Notes under the pieces: generated by a model
What the model was told of the DNA's origin: nothing
Seen by the model: the letters and a program-made list of their open reading frames with translations, nothing else
Databases searched by the model: none
Part shown: positions 8,298-25,273 of the stretch, piece after piece
Numbering within the stretch: the stretch's first letter is position 1
Layout of the letters: each line of letters opens with the position of its first letter
Source: Zwartia panacis
GTDB taxonomy: Bacteria > Pseudomonadota > Gammaproteobacteria > Burkholderiales > Burkholderiaceae_B
Assembly: GCF_030410395.1 (NCBI RefSeq)
Contig: NZ_JAUHHF010000002.1
Coordinates: forward strand, 310,001 to 374,000
Length of the DNA stretch: 64,000 bases
Reading direction: 5' to 3'
Made by a program: the position numbers and the translations under genes

Positions 8298-8395
8298 GAT
8301 ACTAGCAGCAAGTTAAATGAGATTTATTTTAACTAATCGTATCAGATGATGTGAATCGTGCACTTTCCGCACGCCACCCCTCACTGGAGAAAAAA

Positions 8396-8935: not shown

Positions 8936-9366
8936 TGAATGACAACGGGGCCCGGTGCCCCGTTGTGCGCGACTCTTTCGAACTATCACCAGAAGTAAGC
9001 TCCCATTCGCAGCTAACTATGACCTCAGGAACCGTAGTCGTACTCTGCGCCGAATGGTGTGGTGTCTGCAGGGAATTCAAAGATCCGTTTGAGGAACTGG
9101 CACGCGCACTACCCGAGTGGCGCTTAGGTTGGGTTGACATTGAGGCGCACCCTGCCACGGAAGATGTCGAGCTGGAGTCACTACCCTCGCTGATAGTGAC
9201 TGGGCCAGACGAAAAAGTGATCTTTCTGGGACCAGTAGTACCTCGACCAAGTGCCATTGAACAGTTGCTCCGTGGCCTAAAAAACCACAGTCCCCTCGCG
9301 CTCTCTCATGCTGATGCGCAGTGGATAAATGCAGTGCTCGAAACCAGCCGAGATACCCACGGATGA
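8935..9366 (+). CDS. Thioredoxin-like protein (WCGVC active site)
   Basis: A 143-residue protein with a thioredoxin fold: VVVLCAEWCGVCREFKDPF contains the redox CxxC, and SLPSLIV supplies the typical cis-proline loop equivalent. There is no signal peptide, so it is probably cytoplasmic. Its ATG overlaps the stop of the AhpD-like gene (TGATG), indicating translational coupling. Together they look like a small peroxide or disulfide-handling operon. It converges with the glutathione reductase gene. The first 30 residues lack similarity to thioredoxins and may be a family-specific extension. Confidence 0.83.
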   Translation: MNDNGARCPVVRDSFELSPEVSSHSQLTMTSGTVVVLCAEWCGVCREFKDPFEELARALPEWRLGWVDIEAHPATEDVELESLPSLIVTGPDEKVIFLGPVVPRPSAIEQLLRGLKNHSPLALSHADAQWINAVLETSRDTHG

Positions 9367-9420
9367 GCAAAGCCTGGAGTCCACATTAGGTCATATGCCC
9401 CACAAGACTTGCGCAAGCCG

Positions 9421-10821
9421 TCAACGAACTGGCTCGCGCATCGTCACAAACTCCTCGGCCACTGTCGGGTGGATACCCAAGGTGCCGTCGAATACGGATT
9501 TGGTGGCGCCAGCTCGCATGGCCACGGCAAATCCCTGCACGATCTCACCTGCGTCTGATCCGACCATGTGCAGGCCAACCACACGATCTGTGCCGGCATC
9601 GACCACCAGCTTCATCAAGGTACGCTCGGTGCTGCCGCTCAGGGTGTGGCGCAAGGCGCGGAACTCAGAACGAAACACCAGGACATCGCCGAACTGTTGC
9701 CGGGCCTGCGCCTCGGTCAAGCCTACGGTGCCGACACTCGGGTGCGTGAAGACCGCTGTCGGAATCAGCGCGTAATCCATCTGCCGCAGGAGTTTTCCGG
9801 CGACAGGGCCGAACAAGTGGTCGACCAACTGCATGGATTCACCCAGCGCTACTGGCGTCAACTGCACGCGGGCCGTCACATCGCCCACGGCATACACATT
9901 CGGTAAATTGGTGCGGTAGTTAGCGTCCACCACGATGGCACCCTCACCCGATTGGGCTACGCCCGCAGCCTCCAGCCCCAGTCCCCGCACATTCGGTACA
10001 CGGCCGGTGGCATACAGCACGGCATCTGCCATGACATGGCCGCCATCTTTCAACAGTACCTGCAGGCCACCGGCTTCGCGGGTGATGCGCAGCACATCGG
10101 CGTTCAGCCGCAAATCCACGCCGTGCTTGCGCATTTCCTCGGCGGTGAAATGCCGGACTTCGTCGTCAAAACCCCGCAGCACCTGTGCACCCCGGTACAG
10201 CTGGGTTACTTTGCTGCCCAGGCCATTGAAGATGGAGGCGAATTCACAGGCAATGTAGCCGCCGCCGACGATCACCAGGCGGGACGGGAAAGGGTCCAGA
10301 TCGAACACCTCGTTGGAGGTGATGACGAATTCGCGTCCATGGAAATCGGGTACGTCAGGGGAGCCGCCGGTGGCGATCAGGAAACGTTCGGCGGTCAAGG
10401 TCTGGTGGTGGGTAGAGCCGTCGGCATTCAAGAGGGCCAGACGCACGGTATGGGCATCGAGCAGTTGCGCATGGCCATGGAGCAGGGTCACGCCTGCACC
10501 GCGGAGCAGTTGGTCGTAAACACCATTGAGGCGTGCGATCTCCTGCGCACGCCGGGCTTTGAGGAGACCCCAGTCGAGGGTGGGTGTCTCGAATTGCCAG
10601 CCATAGCCCCGGGCCTCGACAGCCGCCTGCGCGTAGTGAGCGGCGTAGCTGTACAACTTCTTGGGGATGCAGCCGACGTTGACGCAGGTGCCACCAAGAC
10701 CGGCCACTCCTTGCGCTTCTGCCAAGGCGACACGGACCCCTCGCTGGGCAGCCAGGCGTGCAGCCCGCACGCCGCCGCTGCCACCTCCAATGACAAAGAA
10801 ATCAAAATCGTATGCGCTCAT
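9421..10821 (-). CDS. gor: Glutathione-disulfide reductase
   Basis: A 466-residue flavoprotein disulfide reductase. The FAD-binding GGGSGGVRAAR (about 12-22) is followed by the redox pair in GGTCVNVGCIPKK (about 43-55), and the C-terminal HPTVAEEFVTM carries the catalytic His-Glu. This spelling is diagnostic of glutathione reductase rather than lipoamide dehydrogenase or mercuric reductase. It would reduce GSSG with NADPH. The gene follows the membrane-protein gene by 31 bases on the same strand and may be the last gene of the long train that starts near 23.2 kb, where glutathione supply would suit arsenic or oxidant chemistry. Confidence 0.95.
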   Translation of the reverse strand: MSAYDFDFFVIGGGSGGVRAARLAAQRGVRVALAEAQGVAGLGGTCVNVGCIPKKLYSYAAHYAQAAVEARGYGWQFETPTLDWGLLKARRAQEIARLNGVYDQLLRGAGVTLLHGHAQLLDAHTVRLALLNADGSTHHQTLTAERFLIATGGSPDVPDFHGREFVITSNEVFDLDPFPSRLVIVGGGYIACEFASIFNGLGSKVTQLYRGAQVLRGFDDEVRHFTAEEMRKHGVDLRLNADVLRITREAGGLQVLLKDGGHVMADAVLYATGRVPNVRGLGLEAAGVAQSGEGAIVVDANYRTNLPNVYAVGDVTARVQLTPVALGESMQLVDHLFGPVAGKLLRQMDYALIPTAVFTHPSVGTVGLTEAQARQQFGDVLVFRSEFRALRHTLSGSTERTLMKLVVDAGTDRVVGLHMVGSDAGEIVQGFAVAMRAGATKSVFDGTLGIHPTVAEEFVTMREPVR

Positions 10822-10852
10822 GTGATTGCCAAGCCTTGGTTCATAAAAATCT

Positions 10853-11416
10853 TCAGTTGTGATGACTGTCTGTCGGTCTGCGCGTGGCCAGCTTCGTTTC
10901 GCTTCGAGTGACGATCCATAAGATCGCGATCAATCCATAGTTCAAAGCAAGCTGCCAAGGATCGTTCCAGGCCCACCCATCAAACCCTTGCTGCGTGACC
11001 GGATACAGCACGGGGGAAGGATAAAAGTCTGCCGAGTGGGTGAATACATCCATCACGATATGCATCCACCAACCCAACAGGGGCAACCACAGACGCCGCA
11101 AGAACATCCAACTCAAAAGTGTGACCAAGGCGGCTACCAGCGCGCTGTGCATGACGCAATGCAGGTGATGTGCAATGAGTTCCACCGTCGGCGGCAACAC
11201 CGGTTCATAGCGTGGCAGCGCATGGAAATAGGCTTGCATGGCCGACCAGCCCTGCGGCGTTGTCAGAGCTGCGGTCACGATGGGCATGAGTTGCACCAGA
11301 TCTGGCGCAACGGCGAGGGCCATCGTCCATGTTGCAGTGCTGCGCTTGATCGGTTGACGGCGACCACACCAGCGACACATCACCGCGGCCCACAGTCCAT
11401 GCGCTACGACGTCCAT
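10853..11416 (-). CDS. Multi-pass membrane protein, unknown function
   Basis: A 187-residue protein with several hydrophobic segments (about 4-15, 35-52, 88-112, 115-125, 160-172). Conserved-looking histidine-rich positions occur in AHHLHCVMHSAL and WWMHIVMDVFTHS. The pattern of membrane helices with HxxxD-like motifs resembles small metal-dependent membrane hydrolases of the YdjM/DUF457 type, but the match is only by eye. It sits 57 bases after mtnP and 31 bases before gor on the same strand, so it is probably part of the same transcript. Confidence 0.7.
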   Translation of the reverse strand: MDVVAHGLWAAVMCRWCGRRQPIKRSTATWTMALAVAPDLVQLMPIVTAALTTPQGWSAMQAYFHALPRYEPVLPPTVELIAHHLHCVMHSALVAALVTLLSWMFLRRLWLPLLGWWMHIVMDVFTHSADFYPSPVLYPVTQQGFDGWAWNDPWQLALNYGLIAILWIVTRSETKLATRRPTDSHHN

Positions 11417-11473
11417 CGTGGTCCAAGTCGAATCGCCGTGGCGGGCGAGTTGTCGCAGATGCGCACCTTGACC

Positions 11474-12319
11474 TCACCGGCGCAGTACGTCCAGCCACAG
11501 CTTCTGTTCTTCCGTCAATGCCGTGTCGGGGGTGAGCATGGCACTGCCCAGCGCAGAGCGAATGGCCGCATCTGGTTCGGGCAGCGCTTGTGACAGCAAT
11601 GCATCTAGCACCTTGGCTGCCTTCTTCAAGGTCGATCCGTAGAGCTCGAAGATTGAAGCCACATTGACATGCTGCGACGGATCCTCCAGCCAACAGTCAT
11701 AGTCGGTCACCAGGCCCACCGTCGCGTAAGCCATCTGGGCCTCCCGGGCCAAGAAGACTTCTGGCACGTTGGTCATGCCGACCAGGTGGCAGCCAGACTG
11801 GCGCAGGAAGTGACTCTCGGCCTGGGTGCCCAGGCGTGGCCCTTCGACGCAGGCGTAGGTGAGGCCGCGATGGACCTCCAGGCCACACCGGGCGGCGGCG
11901 GACCGCACGGCATCGACCAGTACGGCACTGACGGGTTTCGCTGTCGATACATGGGCGGCCACGCCCCCGCCGAAGAAGGTGCGCTGGCGCTGGCCCCGGG
12001 TCCAGTCGAAATACTGCTCCGGTATCGCAAGGTCCCCCGGCCGGATTTCAAGGGCCAAGCTGCCCACCGCCGAAAAGCCCAGAAGCATGGTGGCTCCGGC
12101 CCGCTTCAGGGCGAACACGTTGGCGCGGTAGTTGACCTCGTGCGGCAGCAGCCGGTGCCCTGCGCCATGCCGCGCCAGGAACAGCACCTCGTTCGACCCC
12201 AGCCGGCCACGCAGGACCTCGCCGGAGGGATCGCCGAAAGGCGTCGTGTCCCGGGAACGATGGGCGATCTCGAGACCCGGAAGTTCATAGAGGCCGGTGC
12301 CTCCGACGATGGCGAGCAT
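11474..12319 (-). CDS. mtnP: S-methyl-5'-thioadenosine phosphorylase
   Basis: A 281-residue purine nucleoside phosphorylase of the MTAP branch. GGTGLYELPG near residues 6-15 and RHGAGH near 49-54 form phosphate-binding loops; GMTNVPEVFLAREA and TDYDCW mark the base- and ribose-binding end. The family cleaves 5'-thio- or 5'-deoxynucleosides to adenine plus a 1-phosphate sugar. It ends two bases from the metallophosphoesterase gene. In this operon the natural substrate may be a 5'-modified deoxyadenosine made by the ArsS-type enzyme rather than methylthioadenosine itself; this is inference from context. Alternative: ordinary methionine-salvage enzyme, or MTI phosphorylase. Confidence 0.9.
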   Translation of the reverse strand: MLAIVGGTGLYELPGLEIAHRSRDTTPFGDPSGEVLRGRLGSNEVLFLARHGAGHRLLPHEVNYRANVFALKRAGATMLLGFSAVGSLALEIRPGDLAIPEQYFDWTRGQRQRTFFGGGVAAHVSTAKPVSAVLVDAVRSAAARCGLEVHRGLTYACVEGPRLGTQAESHFLRQSGCHLVGMTNVPEVFLAREAQMAYATVGLVTDYDCWLEDPSQHVNVASIFELYGSTLKKAAKVLDALLSQALPEPDAAIRSALGSAMLTPDTALTEEQKLWLDVLRR

Positions 12320-12321
12320 GT

Positions 12322-13290
12322 TCAGTCCTCCTGACGAATGACTTGATGGGGCTGGTAGTCCGGACCGCCCTCGATCCGTTCGAAATACGACGCATGGGCA
12401 TCAGTGCCAGCGGGCCATTGCGCAAGGAAAGCCTGCCGCACGGCCGCAGGATCGGCCTCGATGGCCAGGGCATCGACATGGAGCCTCTTGTGGATCACGC
12501 TGGCGCGGCTGCCCTTCGCCTCGCACGGCATGACGGCGATGCGCGTGATCAGCCCTGCCGGGTCACCCCGGAAGTTCGGCATCCCCGCTGCGCCGTTGTT
12601 GAAGATCCAGCCTGGCGAGCGCTGAGTGCCCAGGTCCAGGCGCTGGAACACGGGCAAACAGGTGTGGCTGCTCGCGAACGCATCGACGCCCCCACGGTGG
12701 AACCAGTCCCGTACCTGCTCGCGGTGGTCGACCTCGCGCAAGTGTTCCTGCGCGAACCCCCAGCCCGCCAGCGACTGCGCGTCACCGTGGACGATGCCGA
12801 TGCGGCAGTCCCCCACCTCGGCCGTCAGCCACATCGGCAAGTCCGACAAGGCGGCGCGCTGGTCGGGCGTAACGGCGCCGCGTAGCCGGCGCAGGATGCG
12901 GTTCGACCGCTCCACCACCGCATCGCCGACCCAGTCGGGATAGGCGCAGCCGCAACCCGCATCGTCCTGCGGGTCGGGATCTGCCAGTTCGGTTTCCACG
13001 TTGCCGCGAAGTGCGGTGTGGGCCAGCACTGCCTGCTGGACCCGCGCAAACCGGGCCGGATCGACGTCGAACCAGTGGAAATCGCCGTTGAAGACGAGGC
13101 GTTTGCGGCCCTGCTCCGCATCGAAAAGCCGCAGGATTTCCGTCAAGGCCGACTCATTGCCATAGAGCCCGCCAACGACATACAGGACCTCCAGGTCACG
13201 CAGTGCAGCGGCCGGCGCTTGCCGGAAAACCTCGGGGCCGTAGTGGTAATGCAAGGGGCAGGTTCGTCCGGGGGTTGCTATGGCATCCAT
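12322..13290 (-). CDS. Calcineurin-like metallophosphoesterase
   Basis: A 322-residue protein with the dinuclear-metal phosphoesterase pattern in order: VVGGLYGN (about 37-44), NGDFHWFD (about 68-75), GNVE (about 95-98), a later HGD, and SSHTCLP. The usual first Asp-His pair is replaced by a VGGLYGN stretch, so the metal site may be modified. The start is chosen at 13290 because GGAGA lies eight bases upstream. This makes its first 95 bases overlap the end of the ABC ATPase gene. In context it could dephosphorylate a sugar-phosphate or phosphonate intermediate; the substrate is unknown. Confidence 0.82.
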   Translation of the reverse strand: MDAIATPGRTCPLHYHYGPEVFRQAPAAALRDLEVLYVVGGLYGNESALTEILRLFDAEQGRKRLVFNGDFHWFDVDPARFARVQQAVLAHTALRGNVETELADPDPQDDAGCGCAYPDWVGDAVVERSNRILRRLRGAVTPDQRAALSDLPMWLTAEVGDCRIGIVHGDAQSLAGWGFAQEHLREVDHREQVRDWFHRGGVDAFASSHTCLPVFQRLDLGTQRSPGWIFNNGAAGMPNFRGDPAGLITRIAVMPCEAKGSRASVIHKRLHVDALAIEADPAAVRQAFLAQWPAGTDAHASYFERIEGGPDYQPHQVIRQED

Positions 13291-14083
13291 CGGCAGGGTC
13301 TCCAGTTTCGTAGAGGTTTTTCAGCAGGTCAGGACTTAGCGTCTTGAGGGGCGCATCGAATACCAGGCGTCCCTCCTTCAGCCCGATGACCCGGTCTGCC
13401 AGGCGAGGCAGCAATTCAGTGTCGTGAACCACGGTCAACAGCGTGGCATCGGCCGCCAAGGCCACCAGGGCGTCGCAGGCCTGCTGGGCGGCTGCAGGAT
13501 CCAGCGCCGAGGTGGGTTCGTCGGCCAGCAGCAGCTTCGGGCGCTGCAGGCGCAGGCGTGCGAGGCTGACTTTCTGGCGTTCGCCGCCCGAGAGGCGATC
13601 GGCTCGCGTGTCCATGCGATGCTCCAGGCCCAGGTCTGAGAGCGCCTGGCGGGCCTCACGAAGCAGTGATTCCGGGTAACAGCGCAACCAACTGCGCCAC
13701 AGCGGCATCGCACCCGGCCGGGCCAAGGCACCAAGCACTACGTTCTCCAGCGCGCTCAGGCGGGCGACCAGGTGCAGACCCTGCATCACCTGGCCGATCT
13801 CGGCGCGTAACGCCCGCCACTGCGCAGCGCTCATGGCTTTCGACCCCACACCTGTAACGTCGCGCCCCAAGACCGCGATACGGCCCTGCGATGCGCTCAC
13901 AAATCCACCCAGGGCCTTTAGGAGCGAACTCTTGCCGGCGCCATTGGGCCCGATCAAGGCCACGCGCTCGCCATGACGGACGGTCAACGAGGGCACATCG
14001 AGGATGCATCGCCCCTTGATCTCGAGAAGCAGGTCCCGGACATCGACGACAACCCCGGGCAGCGGATGGTTCACGGCGCTCAC
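13196..14083 (-). CDS. phnC: PhnC-like ABC transporter ATPase
   Basis: A 295-residue ABC ATPase. Walker A is GPNGAGKSS (45-53), the Q-loop glutamine is near 98, the signature LSGGE is at 164-168, Walker B LLLADEP at 184-190 and the switch histidine at 220. Size and subfamily fit the phosphonate-type importers, but the imported compound cannot be read from the ATPase. The family normally ends soon after the GRLVFDAPL segment; here about 30 low-complexity residues extend into the metallophosphoesterase gene. Its start overlaps the permease stop by four bases. Confidence 0.86.
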   Translation of the reverse strand: MSAVNHPLPGVVVDVRDLLLEIKGRCILDVPSLTVRHGERVALIGPNGAGKSSLLKALGGFVSASQGRIAVLGRDVTGVGSKAMSAAQWRALRAEIGQVMQGLHLVARLSALENVVLGALARPGAMPLWRSWLRCYPESLLREARQALSDLGLEHRMDTRADRLSGGERQKVSLARLRLQRPKLLLADEPTSALDPAAAQQACDALVALAADATLLTVVHDTELLPRLADRVIGLKEGRLVFDAPLKTLSPDLLKNLYETGDPADGCHSNPRTNLPLALPLRPRGFPASAGRCTA

Positions 14084-14973
14084 AGCAAGGCCTTTCGGAT
14101 GCGACGAGACAGCGCATCAAACGCCATGACCAGCGCAATCACCACCAGGATGATGGTCGCCAGGCGGCTCCATTGGAACAGGCTGACCGCCTCGGAAATC
14201 AGCAAGCCGAGGCCGCCGGCACCGATCAGGCCGAGGATGGTGGAATCGCGGATGTTGAACTCCCACACGTAGAGGTGATTGCTGACGAATTGGGGCAGCA
14301 CCGAAGGCCAGACAGCGCTGAAAAAAACCTGTGAGGGCGAGGCACCCGTTGCCCGCACCGCGTCCACGGCTCCCATGTCGATGGTCTCGATGCTCTCCGC
14401 GTACAGCTTGCCGTAGGTGCCCATGGAGTGCAGCGCAATGGCCAGAATGCCCGCCGTGGGGCCCAGCCCCACGATGCCGACCAGCACCAGGCCGAACACC
14501 AGCGTGTGGATGGCCCGCAAGGTATCCAGCAGGGTGGAAGCCGTGCGCGAAGCCCAGGCTGGCGCGCTCAGGTTGCGGGCCGACAAGAGGCCCAAGGGCA
14601 GGGCCATCACGGCAGCCAGTAATGATCCCAGCGTGGCGATCTGAAAGGTGGTCCAGGTGGCGCGCCCCAGCCCTGCGAGAAACTGGGCCTCCACGTGCTG
14701 GCGGTTCTCCACCCTCAACAGGGTGCCGTCGTCACTGCGGTACTCCAGTCGCTCAGGGCCCCACCAGAGATCCAGGAAACTGGGGTGGGCAAACTCCGAG
14801 ACCGTCTTGAGCAGGTTGTGCCAGGGCGCACGGCCCCAGGACAGATCGCCCGCCGCAAGCAGCGTCAGCAGGCAAGCCAGCACCAGCCCTGCGTAGGCAA
14901 GCACCAGCGTGAAAAAGCCGAGCCTGCCCCGGGGCAGCCAGGGCCGAGTACCAAATGTTGCCGACGGTTGCAT
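14080..14973 (-). CDS. phnE: PhnE-like ABC transporter permease
   Basis: A 297-residue inner-membrane permease with about six hydrophobic segments (for example 21-42, 108-135, 150-175, 205-220, 240-280). The cytoplasmic coupling loop reads AVDAVRATGASPSQVFFSAVWPSVLPQ, the EAA-type motif of phosphonate/phosphite permeases. It follows the binding-protein gene by six bases and overlaps the ATPase gene by four. The three genes together encode one complete importer of the PhnCDE/PtxABC class. The substrate could be a phosphonate, phosphite or, given the neighbours, an organoarsenical; this is not determined. Confidence 0.88.
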   Translation of the reverse strand: MQPSATFGTRPWLPRGRLGFFTLVLAYAGLVLACLLTLLAAGDLSWGRAPWHNLLKTVSEFAHPSFLDLWWGPERLEYRSDDGTLLRVENRQHVEAQFLAGLGRATWTTFQIATLGSLLAAVMALPLGLLSARNLSAPAWASRTASTLLDTLRAIHTLVFGLVLVGIVGLGPTAGILAIALHSMGTYGKLYAESIETIDMGAVDAVRATGASPSQVFFSAVWPSVLPQFVSNHLYVWEFNIRDSTILGLIGAGGLGLLISEAVSLFQWSRLATIILVVIALVMAFDALSRRIRKALL

Positions 14974-14979
14974 CGGGTA

Positions 14980-15879
14980 TTACTGCCTCGGGGTCAGCTT
15001 GCCGGTGGCCAGACCGGCGTCGCGAATCGGCTTGTAGAAGGCGTTGTCGGTGTTGACGAAGCCGGTGTAGTTGGCTGGCAGCAGCTGCGGCTGGCGCTTG
15101 AGCAGAGGACCCACCTCCAGCAAGGCCTCCTGCACACGCTTGACGAAAGCCTTGTCCTTGTAAAGCGCGGCACTGACGGCCACCGCATCGTTGGGCAGCG
15201 GCGCCGACTGCCAGATGATCTTGCTGCGCTCGGCCCGGATGAGACCTTGGTCGATCATGGCGGTGCGGTTGCGGTTGTAGTCCGCACCGGCGTCGAGCTG
15301 GCCTGCGGTCACCTGGGTCTGGATGGCCTGGTGCTTCGTGTACAGGACACGGGAGAAATGCTTCTCCGGGTCGATGCCCTGTTGCATGAAGAAGTGCAGC
15401 GGTATCAGGTAGCCCGACGTGGAGCCCTTGTCGCCAAACGCAAACGTGCGCCCTTTGCCCTTGGGGCCGATCAGGTCCTGCGCGCTGTTCAGCCCCGATT
15501 CGGGATGGGTCACGATCATGGCGAAGTATTCGGGCTTGCCCTGGTAGAGGATGGTGGAGACCACCTGCGCGTCGGCGAAGTGATGGGCCAGGACATAGCC
15601 CCAAGGGCCCATCAAGGCGATATCCGTTTCGCCGTTGGCCAGGCTCTTGGCCAGCCCCTCCCAGCTGTCGACCGTGCGCAATTCCACCGGTCGGCCCAGG
15701 CGCGCCGACAGGTGCTGGGCCAGCGGGCGGTAGGTGGCATCATTTTTTTCCCGGTCGGGCTGGAACATGCCCACTCCGAACTTGAGTGGAGCGCCTTGCG
15801 CCAGCACGGGTGTGGACCACAGGGGAGCAGACAAGGTGACGGCCGCTGCAGCGACCATCGAGCGACGGATGAGGTTCAT
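14980..15879 (-). CDS. phnD: PhnD-like periplasmic binding protein
   Basis: A 299-residue secreted solute-binding protein. It starts with a signal peptide (MNLIRRSMVAAAAVTLSAP, cleavage after about VLAQG) and continues with the PhnD/SsuA fold: FGVGMFQPDREK, a LANGETDIALMGPW phosphonate-family stretch and FGDKGSTSGYLIP, which in PhnD-type proteins lines the ligand pocket. An upstream in-frame extension is rejected because AGGAG sits correctly before this ATG and only this start gives a signal peptide. It overlaps the preceding flavoprotein gene by four bases (ATGA). Confidence 0.9.
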   Translation of the reverse strand: MNLIRRSMVAAAAVTLSAPLWSTPVLAQGAPLKFGVGMFQPDREKNDATYRPLAQHLSARLGRPVELRTVDSWEGLAKSLANGETDIALMGPWGYVLAHHFADAQVVSTILYQGKPEYFAMIVTHPESGLNSAQDLIGPKGKGRTFAFGDKGSTSGYLIPLHFFMQQGIDPEKHFSRVLYTKHQAIQTQVTAGQLDAGADYNRNRTAMIDQGLIRAERSKIIWQSAPLPNDAVAVSAALYKDKAFVKRVQEALLEVGPLLKRQPQLLPANYTGFVNTDNAFYKPIRDAGLATGKLTPRQ

Positions 15880-17015
15880 GGGGTTTCTCCTGGGACAGGG
15901 ACGGGTCTGGTGTTGGCGGACGCAAAGCGGCGCACGAATCGGCGATCGATGCGGTCTTTCCACAGCCAGGCCCAACGGCCGGACAAGCTGAAGCGTCCAC
16001 GCGAGGCGATGGCACTGCCGTCTGCAGTGGACAGCAAGGACAGAAACGTGGATTGGGGTGTGTAAGGCTGCAAGGCCGCCCCGGTCAGCGCCGCGCGCAG
16101 GTTGTGCGTCAGCACAGGTCCCATCCGGACCGCGTAGACCCCGGCTTTGGGCAAGGGCGTGTGCCATTGGGCGCAATCCCCAGCCGCAAAAATGCGGGGA
16201 TGGGACACCGAGCGCAGGCTGGTATCGATCAGCACGAAGCCTTCCGCGCTGGCGGCCAGGCTGCCCCGGCGGTCCGGGTCACGTTGCCAGGCATTGGCTT
16301 GAGCGCCTGTCGCCCAGAGCACCAGGTCGCTGTCACGCCCCTTGGCGTCACACCAGGCGGTGCCGAGTTGCACCGTGACGTTCGCGTCTTTCAACGCGCG
16401 CTGCGCCGCTCGCTGGGCGCTGGCGGGATAGCCAGGCAGAAGTTCAAGCCCCCGCGTCAACAACGCGCCTTGCACGTCACGGTCTGGTCGCAGCATGCGC
16501 AGCCGCCTCAGCACCGCCAGCAGGGATTCGAAACCCGCCGCACCGCCGCCCACGGCGGTCACCTGGAAGGGCCGGTTGCTGCCCTCCTCCTTGCGCCAGT
16601 CTTCGAGGAGCCGGTCGTAGCGGGTTCGCAATTGAGACAAAGGCCGCATGGACAACACATGGGCCGAAGACTCGCCTTCCGGCGGGGTCAGTGTCGAGCC
16701 GGTGTTGAGCGACAACCAGTCGTAGCGGAGCGATTCACCGTTGTCCAGGTGCACGCACTGTGTATCAGGGTCCAGGCGGTCAATGGCTGCCGACACCCAG
16801 CGCGCACCCGCTTGACCGCACAGGGCCGGGAAGTCGATGACGCTCTCCTCGAACCCATAGGTGCCTGCCAGCCATCCGGGCACCATGCCCGAATAGGGGG
16901 CCAGCGCCTGGGGCGACACCACCACCAGATCGACGCCGGCCAGAGGCTCCTGCGACCAGGCTTGCAGTACCTGGGCATGGGCATGGCCCGCACCGGCCAA
17001 TATCACGCGTTGCAT
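15876..17015 (-). CDS. FAD-dependent pyridine nucleotide-disulfide oxidoreductase (TIGR03169-like)
   Basis: A 379-residue flavoprotein. The FAD fold begins VILAGAGHAHAQVLQAW (4-20), the NAD(P) fold is at AVGGGAAGFESL (about 154-165), and IFAAGDCAQW (about 270-279) closes the FAD site. No redox CxxC is present, so it is not a thiol reductase. GAGHAH near the N-terminus and the overall pattern match the TIGR03169 group, which also occurs fused to selenophosphate synthetase. The electron acceptor is unknown. It overlaps phnD by four bases and the upstream gene by 13, implying tight coupling. Confidence 0.82.
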   Translation of the reverse strand: MQRVILAGAGHAHAQVLQAWSQEPLAGVDLVVVSPQALAPYSGMVPGWLAGTYGFEESVIDFPALCGQAGARWVSAAIDRLDPDTQCVHLDNGESLRYDWLSLNTGSTLTPPEGESSAHVLSMRPLSQLRTRYDRLLEDWRKEEGSNRPFQVTAVGGGAAGFESLLAVLRRLRMLRPDRDVQGALLTRGLELLPGYPASAQRAAQRALKDANVTVQLGTAWCDAKGRDSDLVLWATGAQANAWQRDPDRRGSLAASAEGFVLIDTSLRSVSHPRIFAAGDCAQWHTPLPKAGVYAVRMGPVLTHNLRAALTGAALQPYTPQSTFLSLLSTADGSAIASRGRFSLSGRWAWLWKDRIDRRFVRRFASANTRPVPVPGETP

Positions 17016-17626
17016 GTCAGCCAGCCCTCCGGCAAGTGCGCCAGGTCTGCCGGCTCGTCGATGTCTGGCACGGCCGGCAGTTCCGTCCAGGGCAAACCGA
17101 TCTTTCGAGCCCTGGCACGGGTGTCCTGCATGACCTGGGGCGTACTCCAGGTCATGTCCAGGAACAGCTCTGGTACGGGACGCGTCAGGCCGACGAGTGC
17201 GTAACCCCCATCGAGTGCAGGCACGAACACGGCAGGAGCCAGATCGAGCGCCTGTTCGGCCTGCGCCAAGATGCGGGCATCGAGCGCCGGGGCGTCGGTA
17301 CCGATCAACAAGGCACGGCGGTGTACGGACAGCACCCGGCTCAAGGCCCGGTACATGCGCTGACCCAGATCGCCTTCGCCCTGCAGCGTGAGATGCAAAC
17401 GGTCACCCGACACGTCGCAGGCACGACCGAACGCCGGGTGCTGGTCGTTGGGCGAAACGCACAACTCGAGGTGCTCGACGGGCAGGGCCCGCGCCTGCTG
17501 CAGGGTGTGTTCCAGCAAACGCTCAGCCAGATTGGCAGCGCCCTCAGGGCCCAGTGCAGGGATCAGGCGGGTTTTGGCCAACCCGGCCACAGGGGCCTTG
17601 GCAAAGACGATCAGGGCGGTGGTCAT
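17003..17626 (-). CDS. TIGR04282-family arsenosugar biosynthesis glycosyltransferase-like protein
   Basis: A 207-residue nucleotide-diphospho-sugar transferase fold. FAKAPVAGLAKTRLIPALG near residues 8-26 and LIGTDAPAL near 98-106 are signatures of the TIGR04282 family, named for its association with ArsS genes; the TDxP segment is the nucleotidyltransferase metal site. The start at 17626 is chosen because it overlaps the upstream stop by four bases and aligns with the family; the longer frame is unconserved. It probably transfers or activates a sugar in the pathway, but no enzyme of this family has a role I can state as proven. Confidence 0.87.
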   Translation of the reverse strand: MTTALIVFAKAPVAGLAKTRLIPALGPEGAANLAERLLEHTLQQARALPVEHLELCVSPNDQHPAFGRACDVSGDRLHLTLQGEGDLGQRMYRALSRVLSVHRRALLIGTDAPALDARILAQAEQALDLAPAVFVPALDGGYALVGLTRPVPELFLDMTWSTPQVMQDTRARARKIGLPWTELPAVPDIDEPADLAHLPEGWLTCNA

Positions 17627-18303
17627 CGGTAAGCCTCTGCCAGTCGCTCGGGGGATTCGCCGCGCCAATAGCGCCAGCGCAGGCGCCACATCAGAAGGAT
17701 GGTCGTCCACACGCCGCGGCTTTCCCAACGCCGGCCAGAGGTGGCCACCTGGGCACGCAGGCAGGCCGGTCGCGCCCATTGGCGTAGCCGCTTGGAGAGT
17801 TCGATATCCTCCATCAGTGGCTGCTCGGGGAACCCGCCGATGCGTTCGAAGTTGTCGCGCCGCACGAACAGGGCCTGGTCGCCGGTGGCGATCCCGCTCA
17901 GACGAGAGCGGGCATTCATGAGCGCCGCGACGACGCGCAACATCCAGGCGGAGCCGACGATCCGGACGTCAAAGCGCCCCCACACCGCACCGGCTGCGAT
18001 AGCGTCCAGCACAAGCCGGTCGGCCTGTGGCGGCAGTTGGGTGTCGGCATGCAGGAACAGCAACACCTCGCCCCGTGCCTTCGCCGCCCCCGCATTCATT
18101 TGCCTCGCCCGGCCACGCGGCGCGGTGAGTACGACCGAGGCATGCGCCTGGGCCTGATGGAAGGTGTCATCGTGGCTACCGCCGTCCACCACGATCACCT
18201 CGGCGCCCTGTTGCCTCAGGTGAGCCAAGGCACGCAGGGTGGCTTCAATGCCAGCGGCCTCGTTCAGTACCGGGACAATGATCGACAAGGCGACTGCGCT
18301 CAT
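17623..18303 (-). CDS. TIGR04283-family arsenosugar biosynthesis glycosyltransferase (GT2)
   Basis: A 226-residue GT-A fold glycosyltransferase: SIIVPVLNEAAGIEATLRAL (7-26) binds the nucleotide, VVDGGSHDDT (about 38-47) follows, and FLHADTQLP (about 83-91) carries the DxD-like metal site. GDQALFVRR and EDIELSKRL match the TIGR04283 family, which co-occurs with ArsS. It overlaps the DUF547 gene and the TIGR04282 gene by four bases on each side. The pair with TIGR04282 is the usual sign of an arsenosugar-type locus. The acceptor is unknown. Confidence 0.88.
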   Translation of the reverse strand: MSAVALSIIVPVLNEAAGIEATLRALAHLRQQGAEVIVVDGGSHDDTFHQAQAHASVVLTAPRGRARQMNAGAAKARGEVLLFLHADTQLPPQADRLVLDAIAAGAVWGRFDVRIVGSAWMLRVVAALMNARSRLSGIATGDQALFVRRDNFERIGGFPEQPLMEDIELSKRLRQWARPACLRAQVATSGRRWESRGVWTTILLMWRLRWRYWRGESPERLAEAYR

Positions 18304-19127
18304 GGCGTTCCCTTGGCGTCATTGAGGCGCCAGTCATAGTCCAGGTAGGTGATCAACACCTGGGTGGAGCGGATGCGGGCGCGGTCGGCTTCGACGTCAG
18401 CCAGAGCGTCGGCGAAGCGAGCCGCCAACCCATGCAAGGAATAGATGCCTTGGTGGCCCAGCCGGAAGTCCTCGGCATACCAGTCGAAGATGCGTGACAG
18501 TTCTAGCTGTTCAGTCTTCGGGTTCCAGCGGTTGCGTTCCCGGTCAGCCATGAAGCGCTGCATTTGCGCATCCAGCTGCTGGTCAATCAGCTCGGGAACG
18601 TAAGCTTCCTCGCGCAGCATGGGGCAGCCGATGGAGGCACAGTTCACCGCAAAGTGGATGCGTGGATCGTTGTACACGCCGCGCTTGCGAAGCATGCCGT
18701 GTTCGATATCGTCGAGCGAGACCGTCTCACCCAACAGCGCAATCCAGCGCAACTTCCAGGGGGTGGACAGCCAGTTGCCCAGGTCCTTGATGGATGCGAG
18801 ACGCGGGTAGCGCGTCAGGATCAACTCGACGGTGAAGGCGTTGTAGGCGTTGATCAAGAACGCCATTTGCTGCGCCCGGGTGAATGCCTCGAAATTCACC
18901 CGAGGCACCGCCGAGAGTTGACGTAGGTAGTCCTGCAACGCGCCCCTTTGCGCCAGGAACCCGGCGTAACGTACCTGGGAGGCGCGGCCGCCACGTTGCA
19001 CCACCACGAGCGATTTGACCAAGCGGTTCCAGGCTGCGTGGGTGTGGTCGAAAGTCTGCGCCAGCACCAGGGGGGCGAACGCGGTGACGCCGAGCACCGA
19101 CATGCATTGACGCCGTGTGAGCCTCAT
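18300..19127 (-). CDS. DUF547-domain protein, probably exported
   Basis: A 275-residue protein. Residues 1-24 (MRLTRRQCMSVLGVTAFAPL onward) form a signal sequence with twin arginines, possibly a Tat or a Sec signal. The body has the DUF547 hallmarks INAYNAFTVELIL, DDIEHGMLR and DPRIHFAVNCASIGCP, with conserved Cys, His and Glu that resemble a papain- or transglutaminase-like site. Function is unknown. A longer upstream frame is rejected; the start at 19127 overlaps the fusion gene's stop by four bases. Confidence 0.86.
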   Translation of the reverse strand: MRLTRRQCMSVLGVTAFAPLVLAQTFDHTHAAWNRLVKSLVVVQRGGRASQVRYAGFLAQRGALQDYLRQLSAVPRVNFEAFTRAQQMAFLINAYNAFTVELILTRYPRLASIKDLGNWLSTPWKLRWIALLGETVSLDDIEHGMLRKRGVYNDPRIHFAVNCASIGCPMLREEAYVPELIDQQLDAQMQRFMADRERNRWNPKTEQLELSRIFDWYAEDFRLGHQGIYSLHGLAARFADALADVEADRARIRSTQVLITYLDYDWRLNDAKGTP

Positions 19128-21292
19128 GCGCGCTCCCAAGCGTGAAACCTTTCCAACCAGCCCAAGACCCTCTGCGGCACGTGTGCACGTTTCCACTCGC
19201 CGGCTGCGTACTTGTTGGCTTCAGAGAGCGTGGGGTAGGTGTGGATGGTGCCCAGGATCTTGTTCAGGCCCAAGCCGTGCTTCATGGCCAGCACGTACTC
19301 AGCCAGAAGATCGCCCGCGTGTTCGCCGACGATGGTCACGCCCAAAATCTTGTCTTTGCCAGGCACCGTCAGAACCTTGACGAAACCGTGTGCGGTGCCG
19401 TCGGCAATGGCACGATCCAGGTCGTCGATGCCGTATTTCGTGACCTCGAAGGCAATGCCTTTGTCCTTTGCTTCGGTTTCCGACAGGCCCACGCGGGCCA
19501 CTTCCGGATCGGTGAAGGTGGCCCACGGGATGACCGAGTAGTCGGCCTTGAAGCGTTTGAAGCGTCCAAACAGGGCGTTAACCGCCGCATACCAGGCCTG
19601 GTGTGCAGCCGTGTGGGTGAACTGGAACGGACCCGCCACATCGCCCACCGCGTAGATGTTGGGGTAGAGCGTTTGCAGGTAGTCGTTGGTCTCGATGGTC
19701 TTGCGCGGCGTGAGCGAAATGCCCAGTTCTTCCAGTCCATAACCGCTGACGCGCGGGCTGCGGCCTACGGCACAGAGCAGTTCATCGAAAGGCACGGCAA
19801 GTTCCTCGCCACCGTGCTGGACGATCAGGCGCTTTTCACCATTGGCCATCTCCACACGCACCGCCTGGTGCCCGGTCAGGATGTTCACCCCGTCGGCGCG
19901 CAGCGAAGCTGCAACCAACTCGCTGACTTCAGGGTCTTCGCGCACCATGATGCGCGGCGCCATCTCCACCTGTGTCACCTCGCTACCCAGGCGCGCGAAG
20001 CTCTGTGCCAGTTCGCTGCCGATGGGGCCGCCGCCCAGCACGACCAGCCGGCGGGGCAGTTCAGTCAGGTTCCATACCGTGTCGCTGGTCAGAAAGCCTG
20101 CCTCTTTCAAACCAGGAATGGGCGGAACGAAAGGGCTGGCCCCGGCGGCAATGACGATGTTGCGGGTACTCAGGGTCTGGGTGCCTCCATCGGCCAGCGT
20201 CATCTCGACGGTCCAGGGCGAAGTGATGCGCGCATGTCCTTGCAGCACCTGCACCCCCAGCCCCGTGTACCGCTCCACCGAATCGTGCGGCTCGACCTCA
20301 CGAATCACGCTGTGTACCCGCTGCATCACAGCGGCAAAGTCCACCGTACCCTGGGCGTCCCGCAGCCCAAAGGTCTGCGCCTTTCGCAGTTGTTTGATCG
20401 CCTTGGCCGAGCGAATGAGGGCCTTGCTCGGCACGCAGCCGTAGTTCAGGCAGTCGCCGCCCATCTTGTGGCCTTCAATCAGCGTCACCTTGGCCTTCAC
20501 GGCAGCGGCGATATAGGCCGACACCAGGCCGCCCGCGCCTGCCCCGATGACCACCAGGTTGCGGTCAAAACGCTTGGGACGTTCCCAGCGCGCATACAGC
20601 TTGCGCCTTTGCAGCGCGCCCACCACGAACTTCGCCAGCAGCGGAAACACCCCCAGAAGTGCCAGGCTCCCCAGCAGGCCGGGAGACAGCACGTCGCTCG
20701 TCGATTCGATCGCCGCCAGTTGGGTGCCCGCGTTGACGTAGACCGCCGTGCCCGCCAGCATCCCAACCTGACTGACGATGTAGAACTTGCGTGCCCCCAG
20801 CGTGGTCAGGCCCATCAGCAGGTTGATCAGCCAGAACGGAAACACGGGCACCAGCCGCAGCGTCAGGAGATAGAATGTGCCATCCTTGGCCAGCCCGTCG
20901 TTGATGGGCCGCAGCAGCTTGCCGAAGCGCTGCTGGAAGAAGTCGCGCAGCAAGTAACGCGATACCCAGAAAGCCAGCAGCGCACCCACGCTGGAGGCGA
21001 ACGACACCAGCAGAAGACCCAGCGCCCAGCCAAACATAGCACCCGCAGCCAGGGTGAGGATGGATGCGCCCGGAAATGACAGCGCGGCAGCCAGCACATA
21101 CACCCCAAAAAAGGCAAGGGCCGTCTGCAGCGGATGATTCGTGTAGAGGCTGGCCAGCGTATCTCGGCTGGCCTTGAGCTGATCCAGGGTCAGCCACTGG
21201 CCTAGGTCCCAGTGCCGGTAGGCCATCCACAGGACCAGACCACCTAGCAACAGCAAGAGCCACCGGACCCAAAGTCGGGGCGCACTCATCAT
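19124..21292 (-). CDS. TVP38/TMEM64 membrane domain fused to mercuric reductase-like flavoprotein
   Basis: A 722-residue fusion. Residues about 8-25 and 50-225 form a TVP38/DedA-like multi-pass membrane domain (FPGASILTLAAGAMFGW, RLVPVFPFWLINLLMG). From 245 a complete pyridine nucleotide-disulfide oxidoreductase follows, with GAGAGG at 250-255, the redox pair C281/C286 in GGDCLNYGCVPSK and a C-terminal HTYPTLSEANKYAAGEW. It lacks the heavy-metal-associated N-domain and C-terminal cysteine pair of MerA, so mercury reduction is unlikely. It overlaps arsS by four bases. A membrane-tethered redox step at a transported substrate is a reasonable inference. Confidence 0.86.
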   Translation of the reverse strand: MMSAPRLWVRWLLLLLGGLVLWMAYRHWDLGQWLTLDQLKASRDTLASLYTNHPLQTALAFFGVYVLAAALSFPGASILTLAAGAMFGWALGLLLVSFASSVGALLAFWVSRYLLRDFFQQRFGKLLRPINDGLAKDGTFYLLTLRLVPVFPFWLINLLMGLTTLGARKFYIVSQVGMLAGTAVYVNAGTQLAAIESTSDVLSPGLLGSLALLGVFPLLAKFVVGALQRRKLYARWERPKRFDRNLVVIGAGAGGLVSAYIAAAVKAKVTLIEGHKMGGDCLNYGCVPSKALIRSAKAIKQLRKAQTFGLRDAQGTVDFAAVMQRVHSVIREVEPHDSVERYTGLGVQVLQGHARITSPWTVEMTLADGGTQTLSTRNIVIAAGASPFVPPIPGLKEAGFLTSDTVWNLTELPRRLVVLGGGPIGSELAQSFARLGSEVTQVEMAPRIMVREDPEVSELVAASLRADGVNILTGHQAVRVEMANGEKRLIVQHGGEELAVPFDELLCAVGRSPRVSGYGLEELGISLTPRKTIETNDYLQTLYPNIYAVGDVAGPFQFTHTAAHQAWYAAVNALFGRFKRFKADYSVIPWATFTDPEVARVGLSETEAKDKGIAFEVTKYGIDDLDRAIADGTAHGFVKVLTVPGKDKILGVTIVGEHAGDLLAEYVLAMKHGLGLNKILGTIHTYPTLSEANKYAAGEWKRAHVPQRVLGWLERFHAWERA

Positions 21293-22296
21293 GACTCTCC
21301 GGCGGCGCACGCGAGCTTCTGGCCGCTGGGTTCAGTTTCCAGGGCGCCACCGCAACTGCTGCCTTGTCCAGCCGTGCAACCGTAGCAATGGTCCGCCACG
21401 CGGATCGGGGTGCCGGTCACATCGGCACCAAGGAGGTCGCGCAGGTGCGGCCTTGATGCGGGCCCCAGCGTAGCCGGTATGCCCAGCATCTGGTTGAAGT
21501 CGCAGTCGTAGAGGTAACCCTGCCAATCCACACTCAGAAGGGTTCGGCACATCACCGTCTCAAGATTTTCAGGGCGATAGGAGTCCTTGAGCAGGCGCAT
21601 GTAGCCCTCAAAGCTACCCTTGCTGACGAGGGTGCTGCCAAAACGCTGCACCGGCATGTTGGTGATGACAAACAACTGATTGAAGCGGATGCCGAAGTGC
21701 TGCCACAGCTCCCGCTTGTAGTCGGCCTCGAGGGGACCTTGTGCGGGTGGCAGCACGGGACCCTGTGGGTTGTAGACGAGGTTGAGCGTCAAGCCAGAAC
21801 CGGGTTGTCCATAGCCCAGTTCATTGAGCAATTGCAGGCCCGCGATGCTGCGCTCGAACACCCCATCTCCGCGCTGGCGATCCACGTTCGAAGGCGAATA
21901 GCAAGGTAGAGAAGCCGTTACTTCGACGCCCTGTTCGGCCAGGAACTCGGCCAGCCCTTCCTGCCCAGGCTCCGAGAGGATGGTCAGGTTGCAGCGATCG
22001 ATCACCCGCGCCCCCATTTGGCGCGCCTGTTGCACGAGCGCGCGAAAGTTTTCATTCAGCTCGGGCGCCCCGCCGGTTAAATCCACCGTCTTGATGTGGC
22101 GTGTCTGCAGAACGGCCAGCACCAACTTGACCGTGTCTTCGTCCATCATTTCGGTGCGATGGGGCCCTGCGTTCACATGGCAGTGCAGACAGGTCTGGTT
22201 GCACTTGTAGCCCAGGTTGATCTGCAGCGTTTCCAAAACCTTGCGCTGCAACGCAGGAAAGTCAGTCTTGACGAGAAGAGGTAGGGTGGGTCGCAT
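21289..22296 (-). CDS. arsS: ArsS-type radical SAM protein (arsenosugar biosynthesis)
   Basis: A 335-residue radical SAM enzyme. C32, C36 and C39 in CNQTCLHCHVNAGPHRTE bind the 4Fe-4S cluster in the CX3CX2C pattern typical of ArsS. DLTGGAPELNENF binds SAM. C-terminal cysteines (CRTLLSVDWQGYLYDCDFN and HCYGCTAGQGSSCGG) suggest further metal sites. In known ArsS the deoxyadenosyl group of SAM is transferred to a methylated arsenical, giving a 5'-deoxy-5'-arsinoyl-adenosine. The frame could begin at a TTG three codons earlier; the ATG at 22296 is preferred. An ECF-type promoter motif lies about 30 bases upstream. Confidence 0.93.
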   Translation of the reverse strand: MRPTLPLLVKTDFPALQRKVLETLQINLGYKCNQTCLHCHVNAGPHRTEMMDEDTVKLVLAVLQTRHIKTVDLTGGAPELNENFRALVQQARQMGARVIDRCNLTILSEPGQEGLAEFLAEQGVEVTASLPCYSPSNVDRQRGDGVFERSIAGLQLLNELGYGQPGSGLTLNLVYNPQGPVLPPAQGPLEADYKRELWQHFGIRFNQLFVITNMPVQRFGSTLVSKGSFEGYMRLLKDSYRPENLETVMCRTLLSVDWQGYLYDCDFNQMLGIPATLGPASRPHLRDLLGADVTGTPIRVADHCYGCTAGQGSSCGGALETEPSGQKLACAAGES

Positions 22297-22327
22297 GCTG
22301 CTCAATCAAAGGATTGGTGTCCTAGGC

Positions 22328-22356
22328 TATTCGTCGGGCCGGACTGAAAAGTTACA
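22328..22356 (-). promoter_or_regulatory. Predicted ECF-sigma promoter before arsS
   Basis: On the minus strand the sequence reads TGTAAC, 17 bases, CGAATA. The same 29-base layout occurs at 23238-23266 and 23319-23347. Transcription would begin roughly 7 bases past the -10 element, about 25 bases before the arsS ATG. The elements resemble the GTAACC / CGAA promoters of NrsF-partnered ECF sigma factors as I remember them. Confidence 0.72.
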
Positions 22357-22373
22357 AACTCGACTCCCGGGTC

Positions 22374-23228
22374 CTAACCGTGCTGCCGATTACACGGTTT
22401 GTCTGCAGGCACGAAATGGAGGTCTGCAAACCCTGACTGCGCGGCAGACTGGGTGTTATCGGTATCAGCGGTGATCGCCAATTGAATGGGCTGCGCTCCA
22501 GCCCCAAAGAGCCGGGTCACGTCACGGCGCACGTCAACCCGCTCCCAGACCCATCGCCCGGCATCCTGATCGCCGCTGCGCAAGACAACCATCTGAGCAC
22601 GATCTGTGTAAGCGTTGGGGCGGGTGGTGCCGACGGGTTGTCGGTTGTCCCAGACGTAATTGATCGCAGCATCGGGGACGTCCTGCCCCCACATGGCCCG
22701 CGCCACCGCCAGTTGGGCACGCAACGCAAGGCCAATGGAGGAGGCAGGCAACCGAAAGCTCACATAAACCCTTCCTGCGTAATCGTCACCCTCCTTGCGC
22801 GTCATGTCGGCCTGGGCCAATGAGGCGCCCACGCGCCAACGCCAGCACAAGACGGGGGTGGCATCGAGGTCAACGCTGATGGGGCGGGCAAGAAGCGACA
22901 TGCTGGACTGGGAAATGACCTCGACCGAGTGGACACCCTCCCACTGGGTCAATCTGAAGCTGTTGGGACGTTGGCCGGACTTCAGCCGAACCTCCTGCCA
23001 GGGAACCAGTCCGAGATCGAATCGCCCCACCCACTGAACCACTGCCGGATCCGTAAGCGGCACAGCGCCAACGCTCGCACACACCGGTGCGGCCAATGCG
23101 ATCAAGGCCGAAAACACGACCGGAAGGACAAGATGAGAGTGCAGCGGCTTAAGGGTGGCAAGCGGAAATCGTACGTCCGCCCCCGAAACGGACTGCTTGC
23201 GATCAGGTGGTACCAGGAGGATGTCCAT
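22374..23228 (-). CDS. DUF3047-domain protein, probably exported
   Basis: A protein of about 284 residues. A hydrophobic stretch (LVLPVVFSALIALAAPVCAS) looks like a signal peptide, preceded by an unusually long polar segment, so the true start may be further in. The rest matches DUF3047: WEGVHSVEV, CWRWRV, DDYAGRVYVSF, INYVWDN, and DTDNT near the end. Function is unknown. ATG 23228 is chosen because the predicted ECF promoter would start transcripts near 23231; ATGs at 23237 and further upstream would lie before that. It precedes arsS by 78 bases on the same strand. Confidence 0.78.
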   Translation of the reverse strand: MDILLVPPDRKQSVSGADVRFPLATLKPLHSHLVLPVVFSALIALAAPVCASVGAVPLTDPAVVQWVGRFDLGLVPWQEVRLKSGQRPNSFRLTQWEGVHSVEVISQSSMSLLARPISVDLDATPVLCWRWRVGASLAQADMTRKEGDDYAGRVYVSFRLPASSIGLALRAQLAVARAMWGQDVPDAAINYVWDNRQPVGTTRPNAYTDRAQMVVLRSGDQDAGRWVWERVDVRRDVTRLFGAGAQPIQLAITADTDNTQSAAQSGFADLHFVPADKPCNRQHG

Positions 23229-23237
23229 ATCCTCCAT

Positions 23238-23266
23238 AATTCGCAGTTGGCAAGGCAAAGGTTACA
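23238..23266 (-). promoter_or_regulatory. Predicted ECF-sigma promoter before the DUF3047 gene
   Basis: Minus strand: TGTAAC, 17 bases, CGAATT. Spacing is identical to the arsS and sigma-gene copies. The -10 element ends only a few bases before the DUF3047 coding region, implying a very short leader. Confidence 0.72.
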
Positions 23267-23294
23267 TAGCTGCGACCAGAAGCCGACCCGCACA

Positions 23295-24544: not shown

Positions 24545-24663
24545 TCGTCGTCGAGAGTCTGACCGATTGGACTCAGGGCAAATCGAATGAGATTCTTCGC
24601 AATAGGGTGTTGCTAAGCTGGACATGGTGTTTTGGCATCAAAACCGCCGCACCAGCGAACCAA

Positions 24664-25252: not shown

Positions 25253-25273
25253 TCAAATCAGGTTGCTGTTTCA

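Follow-up and report, generated by a model that had tools for sequence, protein, structure and literature searches.

What does a train of fourteen genes built around the radical S-adenosylmethionine (SAM) enzyme ArsS make, and what switches it on? The genes lie in a 64,000-nucleotide stretch of the Zwartia panacis genome (C22:310001-374000, referred to as the window; the genome comprises 3.34 Mb in 54 contigs). We propose, with a probability of about 0.6, that they form an arsenosugar operon which has its own importer and is switched on by an extracytoplasmic function (ECF) sigma-F/NrsF metal-stress system. The core of the operon is of a known kind, and the importer, a protein with a metallophosphoesterase fold (MPE), a clade of MtnP-like phosphorylases and the sigma-F-type control turn it into a variant of its own.

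Profile searches of the listed open reading frames (ORFs) with Pfam and NCBIfam models gave 14 ORFs on the minus strand, spanning 23258 to 9421. Their positions and scores bore out the initial annotation, which had described 14 genes running from DUF3047 to gor and had assigned the families correctly for the most part, leaving a gene for a YdjM-like membrane protein (10853-11416; PF04307 29.9 bits, cut-off 29) unnamed; the coordinates of all operon genes refer to the minus strand. It had also stated that the genes mostly overlap by 4 bases, which holds for about half of them (6 of 13 junctions) when the internal ATGs at 21292 (VTT_FAD), 19127 (DUF547), 17626 (TIGR04282) and 15879 (PhnD) are taken as starts; the remaining junctions show gaps of 2-68 bases or overlaps of 13 and 95. 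ArsS (21289-22305), a member of the radical SAM family of 5′-deoxy-5′-dimethylarsinoyl-adenosine (DDMAA) synthases, reaches the equivalog score of TIGR04167 (465.3 bits, cut-off 300) and carries its radical SAM motif CxxxCxxC (C35/C39/C42), which is kept in at least 95% of 88 aligned sequences. Known ArsS enzymes make DDMAA from dimethylarsenite, and the deoxyadenosyl group stays in the product. Adenosylation of arsenic is mentioned in a passage of PMC12159101. Adjoining ArsS are the GT2-type glycosyltransferase TIGR04283 (17623-18303; 288.7 bits, cut-off 182) and the TIGR04282 protein (17003-17626; 197.5 bits, cut-off 134), and NCBIfam names all three families as arsenosugar biosynthesis. For this core, the earlier view of an undescribed pathway was therefore too strong; for the extended cluster or its importer, no description was found in the open-licence literature. 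The locus thus resembles the ArsM/ArsS arsenosugar biosynthesis of Synechocystis (TIGR04167, TIGR04282, TIGR04283) in having ArsS and both transferase families above cut-off. It differs in that no ArsM was detected in the genome, and it adds the importer, MPE, an MtnP paralogue, a VTT-oxidoreductase, DUF547 and DUF3047 proteins and the sigma-F-type control.

A search of the same genome revealed a second ArsS at another locus (L113). There, DUF3047, ArsS, VTT-oxidoreductase, TIGR04283, TIGR04282, TIGR03169, PhnD, PhnE, PhnC, MPE and MtnP follow each other in the window order, with proteins 49-75% identical, and the cluster has its own divergent sigma/NrsF pair. DUF547 is absent from it, and neither YdjM nor gor occurs in the 15 kb beyond its mtnP (L185); a gor-like gene (46%) is located upstream and on the opposite strand. 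Beta- and gammaproteobacterial ArsS loci likewise carry families of the cluster, and the best named relatives of the window ArsS come mainly from Burkholderiales and Gammaproteobacteria; these named loci are the best 80 of 590 confirmed, with flanks of 10 kb from ArsS, and are biased to close relatives. Neighbourhoods were counted in the 46 of the 80 that measure at least 20 kb (ArsS itself was counted in 45, one ORF falling below threshold). TIGR04283 was present in 39 of the 46, TIGR04282 in 37, the VTT-oxidoreductase in 30, DUF547 and TIGR03169 in 13 each, MPE and MtnP in 12 each, DUF3047 in 11 and PhnD in 4. YdjM and gor were found in none of them within the 10-kb flanks, which is a weak test because both sit 10-12 kb from the window ArsS. 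Ten further stretches downstream of the clusters of nine genomes, the second copy included, likewise contained neither at 60 bits or more. YdjM is single-copy in its own genome and, among 134 genomes, occurs in three ArsS-positive and three ArsS-negative ones, adjoining ArsS only in the window. The assignment of YdjM and gor (9421-10821; NF004776 561.4 bits, cut-off 480, the second equivalog model TIGR01424 being missed with 569.4 bits against 606.05) to the pathway was accordingly not confirmed. Both are probably passengers, and since the second copy and the other clusters lack them, the recurring unit runs from DUF3047 to mtnP.

Co-occurrence was analyzed in 300 genomes of the order, calling ArsS at an expect value (E) of 1e-70 and scoring about the top 7-8 candidates per genome. 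ArsS was present in 93 genomes. Of 47 genomes with MPE 46 also carry ArsS (Fisher 7e-27), as do 23 of 24 with a PhnD-like gene (Fisher 4e-12); counted per genus, ArsS occurs in 43, MPE in 26 and PhnD in 12 of 135 genera. In the sole exception, G276, the contig ends inside the cluster, where an 87%-identical VTT_FAD fragment is followed by PhnD, PhnE, PhnC and MPE (L153). Within 15 kb of ArsS we found 35 of 48 MPE copies and 7 of 26 PhnD copies, and 18 of the other 19 PhnD copies sit in ArsS genomes. Fourteen PhnD copies are close (at least 65% identity) and 12 distant (36-43%), and the latter may form a separate subfamily. Three genomes of a single genus have a distant PhnDEC set (36-41%) divergent from an MPE gene, on stretches without ArsS (L155, L156, L157). 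Taken together, the same gene set does co-occur elsewhere, as the second copy and in large parts at other ArsS loci, and the coherent arsenic-sugar pathway suggested by the initial annotation gains support, as both MtnP-like genes of the genome lie in ArsS clusters and PhnD and MPE are almost confined to ArsS genomes.

Divergently from the operon lie the genes for a SigF-like ECF sigma factor (23346-23912, plus strand; Pfam Sigma70_r2 and Sigma70_r4_2; start uncertain, the ORF opening at 22929) and an NrsF-like anti-sigma factor (23909-24544, plus strand; PF06532 185.6 bits, cut-off 26.8), which fails the stricter model NF042994 (129 bits versus 300). In Caulobacter the sigma-F/NrsF pair responds to chromium and cadmium and the sigma-F promoter sequence is GTAACC-N16-CGAA, as stated in portions of PMC3511200, whose main text does not contain the string 'arsen'. 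Exact matches to this sequence occur twice in the window, both in the divergent gap and in opposite directions, one facing the operon (23240-23265, minus strand) and one facing the ECF sigma gene (23320-23345, plus strand), whereas 60 simulated windows average 0.05; one CGTA variant is intragenic, at 35118. Besides the sigma and NrsF pair, the promoter sequence and the copy facing the sigma gene, the locus shares with the Caulobacter regulon two cysteines of NrsF (C128 and C178, paired by eye with C131 and C181), and it differs in that the motif here precedes an arsenosugar operon. Twelve bases separate the end of the operon-facing motif from the ATG at 23228, so either the message would be nearly leaderless or DUF3047 starts further in. 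The initial annotation had mentioned neither this sigma-F/NrsF control nor the lack of ArsM.

In 89 loci the motif with CG(A/T)A was detected 17 times, against an expectation of about 6 at even base composition; 13 occurrences are at cluster or sigma/nrsF genes, 3 elsewhere (L099, L110) and 1 before a Cys-rich gene of L113. Forty further loci contained 6 occurrences, all at cluster or sigma genes. Each of the seven loci that have a sigma/NrsF relative (L035, L037 with CGTA, L050, L052, L113, L175, L176) contains the motif, which lies 55-68 bases before the start of the ArsS alignment in L033, L035, L037 (CGTA), L113, L120, L154, L175 and L176. In G061, a genome whose ArsS is on another contig, the PhnDEC-MPE module (L150) also has it, 95 bases upstream of PhnD. 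The majority of ArsS loci lack it. The L113 Cys-rich gene preceded by the motif (L113:4348-4972, minus strand) encodes a protein whose N-terminus is Cys-rich and which has a SoxA/TsdA-like cytochrome domain; the gene is some 4 kb away from the second ArsS operon and is followed by genes for DUF6969, a patatin and an FAD oxidoreductase. A motif target in L134 was considered as a bufferin and rejected, as Pfam finds a cytochrome-c-like domain behind its Cys-rich N-terminus. Another ECF sigma factor is present at some ArsS loci (L163:6742-7377 is of the TIGR02943 type), and other stress control may operate there.

Where would the methylated arsenic come from? ArsM was not found in the window genome, the best match scoring 38.4 bits against a cut-off of 263 and no match appearing at the other thresholds used. 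In the order, ArsM (NF008823, E 1e-25) is present in 40 of the 300 genomes, including all 36 found with NF038099, namely in 25 of the 93 ArsS genomes versus 15 of the 207 without ArsS (Fisher 1e-5). The other 68 ArsS genomes contain no recognisable ArsM, and these must therefore draw on another source of methylated arsenic, an unrecognised enzyme or another substrate. An ArsM-like gene lies at 23 of 109 ArsS loci (a weak 84-bit match in L056 being excluded and two of the 23 being cut by locus ends). None of the 14 PhnD-bearing ArsS loci has one versus 23 of the 95 others (Fisher 0.04), and ArsM occurs in 2 of 23 PhnD-bearing ArsS genomes versus 23 of 70 others (Fisher 0.03), both values ignoring shared ancestry. 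A strict swap between ArsM and PhnDCE was rejected in favour of a weak tendency; G061 and G119 carry both. Clustering of unassigned ORFs near ArsS returned mostly antisense shadow ORFs, and the two families followed up were ArsM and the second ECF sigma factor. The former comprises L163:14047-15084 and members at 16 other loci, of which the full-length ones share 62-75% identity with it; the L163 member scores under every NCBIfam ArsM cut-off compared. For the TIGR04169 peroxidase-like protein, which NCBIfam names after arsenosugar clusters, the nearest AhpD-like gene (8351-8935) scored 29.8 bits versus 120, and the search did not extend to the rest of the genome.

The importer consists of a PhnD-like periplasmic binding protein (14980-15879; PF12974 190 bits), a PhnE-like permease (14080-14973; TIGR01097 243.6 bits, cut-off 216.7) and a PhnC-like ATPase (13196-14083; TIGR02315). 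Only PhnE reaches its equivalog score, PhnD staying at 150.9 versus 261.1 and PhnC at 183.4 versus 266.1 bits; the binding protein also matches the putative selenate family TIGR04553 below cut-off. Its closest solved structure is HtxB (5me4, E 4e-53); PtxB and PhnD come next, and AioX and ArrX are more remote. Of the HtxB pocket, with residues taken from parts of PMC5700983 and PMC6629693 plus the alignment, W52, P71, Y97, T129, S130, R178 and D206 are kept as W73, P92, Y118, T154, S155, R203 and D231, whereas N128, F158 and M176 are replaced by S153, H183 and Y201, and W68 by L89. This makes the pocket HtxB-hybrid-type; the same S/H/Y changes are listed in a section of PMC6629693 for 'HtxB-like' proteins, with a pocket modelled larger (88 versus 68 cubic angstrom) and phosphite proposed. 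A hypophosphite-specific HtxB was rejected, as three pocket residues differ. Compared with the HtxBCDE hypophosphite and PtxABC phosphite importers (PF12974), the window importer is found with ArsS genes, and no PtxD- or HtxA-like gene is among the annotated operon genes. AioX and ArrX, likewise PF12974 relatives, have arsenic ligands, AioX binding arsenite via a cysteine. The window protein contains no cysteine, so that AioX-type arsenite binding was rejected, and it is accompanied by a permease and an ATPase. The pocket alone does not decide the ligand; the association of the importer with ArsS points to arsenic.

The MtnP-like phosphorylase (11474-12319) just misses TIGR01694, the equivalog of 5′-methylthioadenosine (MTA) phosphorylase (MTAP), with 268.8 versus 274.85 bits. 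The genome has two MtnP-like genes, both inside ArsS clusters; besides these two, a PNP_UDP_1 gene on C2 (50 bits) fails the MtnP search. Together with L033, L113, L039 and L161, all in ArsS clusters, the window protein forms a clade of five with support of 100/100, separate from five MTAP-type genes on ArsS-free stretches, one of which (L172) stems from G106, a genome with ArsS on another contig; the placement is unsure because the tree program warns of long branches meeting. In MtnP and MTAP the TDYD motif belongs to the adenine site. The window protein keeps TDYDCW, with one-residue insertions before and after it, and shares family as well as phosphate- and adenine-site motifs with MtnP, from which its score and its ArsS-cluster clade set it apart; we propose that it may act as a DDMAA phosphorylase. 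The initial annotation had counted two glycosyltransferases, of which probably only TIGR04283 is one. TIGR04282 is labelled a glycosyltransferase by NCBIfam as well, but it resembles CofC/MobA-type nucleotidyltransferases. It has a weak match to F420_cofC (37.6 bits versus 105, E 1.7e-9, below the equivalog), 3cgx was the sole solved relative found, and P63-x2-G66-x2-KTRL and a DGGY loop are kept in at least 95% of 56 length-filtered sequences; a gene of this family is named fbiD in a passage of PMC8801600. We infer from these motifs and the weak similarity that it would activate a sugar-1-phosphate, fitting the product expected of MtnP.

For MPE (12322-13290), which had been annotated as a phosphoesterase, no Pfam or NCBIfam model matches, and its profile found no real match among sequences of solved structures; its predicted fold is nevertheless that of a metallophosphoesterase. 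The AlphaFold2 (AF2) model, with a mean confidence (pLDDT) of 91.7, matches SapH (3qfn, E 3.7e-10), 1nnw and other metallophosphoesterases in Foldseek (E 4e-10 to 6e-10). Metallophosphoesterases carry the motifs D-x-H, GNHE and GHxH. In an alignment of 22 MPE sequences these read G-L-Y, GNVE and SHTC. Assigned from this alignment, D70, N97, H168 and H209 are the residues expected for one metal site and are invariant, whereas the other site has G41, Y43 and C211 in place of the expected Asp, His and His, and the GNHE histidine is V98. MPE thus shares the fold of SapH and 1nnw but lacks the first D-x-H, the GNHE histidine and the last GHxH histidine, and it has four invariant cysteines (11, 113, 115 and 211), which would suit arsenic or a thiol. 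Among the remaining proteins, a VTT (DedA-like) membrane domain is fused to a disulfide oxidoreductase (19124-21292; PF09335, PF07992, PF02852), whose redox pair C287/C292 (longer-ORF numbering) is kept in at least 95% of 51 sequences. The flavoprotein (15876-17015; 330.9 bits, cut-off 310) belongs to TIGR03169, a family named for its position N-terminal to SelD, and stands alone here. The DUF547 protein (18300-19127; PF04784 93.9 bits, far above the Pfam cut-off) has an N-terminus that looks twin-arginine-like by eye. DUF3047 (22374-23228; PF11249 222 bits, far above the Pfam cut-off; start uncertain) is modelled as a beta-sandwich (AF2, pLDDT 87.4), and, as judged by eye, the protein is probably exported; its best Foldseek match is a ciliary doublet microtubule protein, followed by glucuronyl C5-epimerase and carbohydrate-binding modules, with template modelling scores (TM) of 0.33-0.48 on the query.

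These assignments can be arranged into a pathway. The PhnDCE-like importer would take in a small arsenic oxyanion, most likely methylated because the genome has no detectable ArsM, and the VTT-fused oxidoreductase, the TIGR03169 flavoprotein or both would hold the arsenic trivalent. ArsS, as known from the literature for its relatives, would couple it to the 5′-deoxyadenosyl group of SAM to give DDMAA, from which the MtnP paralogue would remove adenine by phosphorolysis. The resulting arseno-ribose-1-phosphate could be activated as a nucleoside diphosphate (NDP) sugar by the CofC-like TIGR04282 and moved onto an acceptor by TIGR04283; MPE, DUF547 and DUF3047 may help to process or export the conjugate. 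What was computed here covers the gene content and family identities, the second copy, the co-occurrence, the promoter sequence and the lack of ArsM; the ArsS step is known in relatives, and the other steps we infer. A bolder version, which we advance only tentatively, is organoarsenic scavenging: ArsM-free bacteria would import environmental methylarsenicals through a dedicated HtxB-like ATP-binding cassette importer under sigma-F metal-stress control and turn them into arsenosugars via phosphorolysis and an NDP-sugar, with MPE as a new arsenic-handling enzyme having a cysteine-bearing, rewired metal site.

Could the locus be an ordinary arsenosugar cluster of the NCBIfam type, with MtnP serving only the salvage of MTA or 5′-deoxyadenosine and PhnDCE importing phosphite or phosphate? 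The pocket residues S153, H183 and Y201 are those HtxB-like changes thought fit for phosphite in part of PMC6629693, and a phosphorylase is one known 5′-deoxyadenosine route according to a passage of PMC6079011. MtnP-family genes are moreover common in the order (226 of 300 genomes); set against this are the clade of ArsS-cluster members to which the window MtnP belongs, the presence of ArsS in all but one of the PhnD genomes and the sigma-F motif before one ArsS-unlinked PhnD copy. ArsS should also leave little 5′-deoxyadenosine, because its product retains the deoxyadenosyl group, and we consider the ordinary cluster rather doubtful. The product might, alternatively, be no arsenosugar at all: these ArsS homologues would then adenosylate an element other than arsenic, for instance selenium or antimony, and a related sugar conjugate would result. 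The SelD-linked family of the flavoprotein, the selenate-family match of the binding protein and the many ArsS genomes without ArsM would fit this, but ArsS matches the arsenosugar equivalog with 465 bits, ArsM-like genes accompany ArsS at 23 loci and ArsM is enriched in ArsS genomes, which makes another element quite improbable. Chance adjacency of unrelated transcripts, for which the absence of gor and YdjM from the other ArsS clusters examined might speak, is already disfavoured by the second copy in the same order and by the large parts found in other genomes, and appears hardly credible.

Several observations nevertheless weigh against an arsenosugar operon with its own importer and sigma-F control. 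Genome-wide, the motif occurs 12 times and a backwards control pattern 15 times, so that the case for the motif rests on position. The higher frequency of ArsM in ArsS genomes implies that the supply often comes from ArsM. MtnP, MPE or PhnDCE are missing from many ArsS loci, and the co-occurrence counts and Fisher values ignore shared ancestry and draw on no more than roughly the 7-8 best candidates of each genome. Among PhnD copies more than 15 kb from ArsS or on other contigs, only that of G074 shares a contig with it (465 kb apart), and a distance is established for this one alone because the others are on separate draft contigs, some of them short. The pocket is of the 'HtxB-like' type suggested for phosphite in part of PMC6629693, and methyl groups might collide with its tryptophan cap. 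Residues that true phosphoesterases possess are missing from MPE, the MtnP paralogue could serve ordinary MTA salvage, and for an algal arsenolipid a nucleosidase instead of a phosphorylase is proposed in a section of PMC10456119.

On the far side of nrsF follow an integrase (25386-26639), a DUF3631 protein and a restriction-enzyme-like protein (RE_endonuc, ResIII). The G+C content is 52% in 24600-64000 versus 64% in the operon, a tRNA-Ser lies at 41559-41649, and the region 25386-64000 is likely a genomic island. Downstream of gor (7443-9366) are genes for an RclR-like AraC regulator, an AhpD-like protein and a thioredoxin-like protein, and AraC and AhpD relatives are also found near ArsS in L108 and L162. 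An Rfam scan of 7000-27000 gave no match above threshold.

In the portions of the literature consulted, only the first arsenosugar steps, those of ArsM and ArsS, are tied to bacterial genes. The operon offers candidate genes for phosphorolysis, activation, transfer, arsenic supply and regulation. With its tie to sigma-F/NrsF, a metal-stress system already known would come to cover arsenic as well. If the importer does take up methylated arsenic, it would be a dedicated organoarsenical importer, linking the makers of methylarsenicals to bacteria that make sugars from them.

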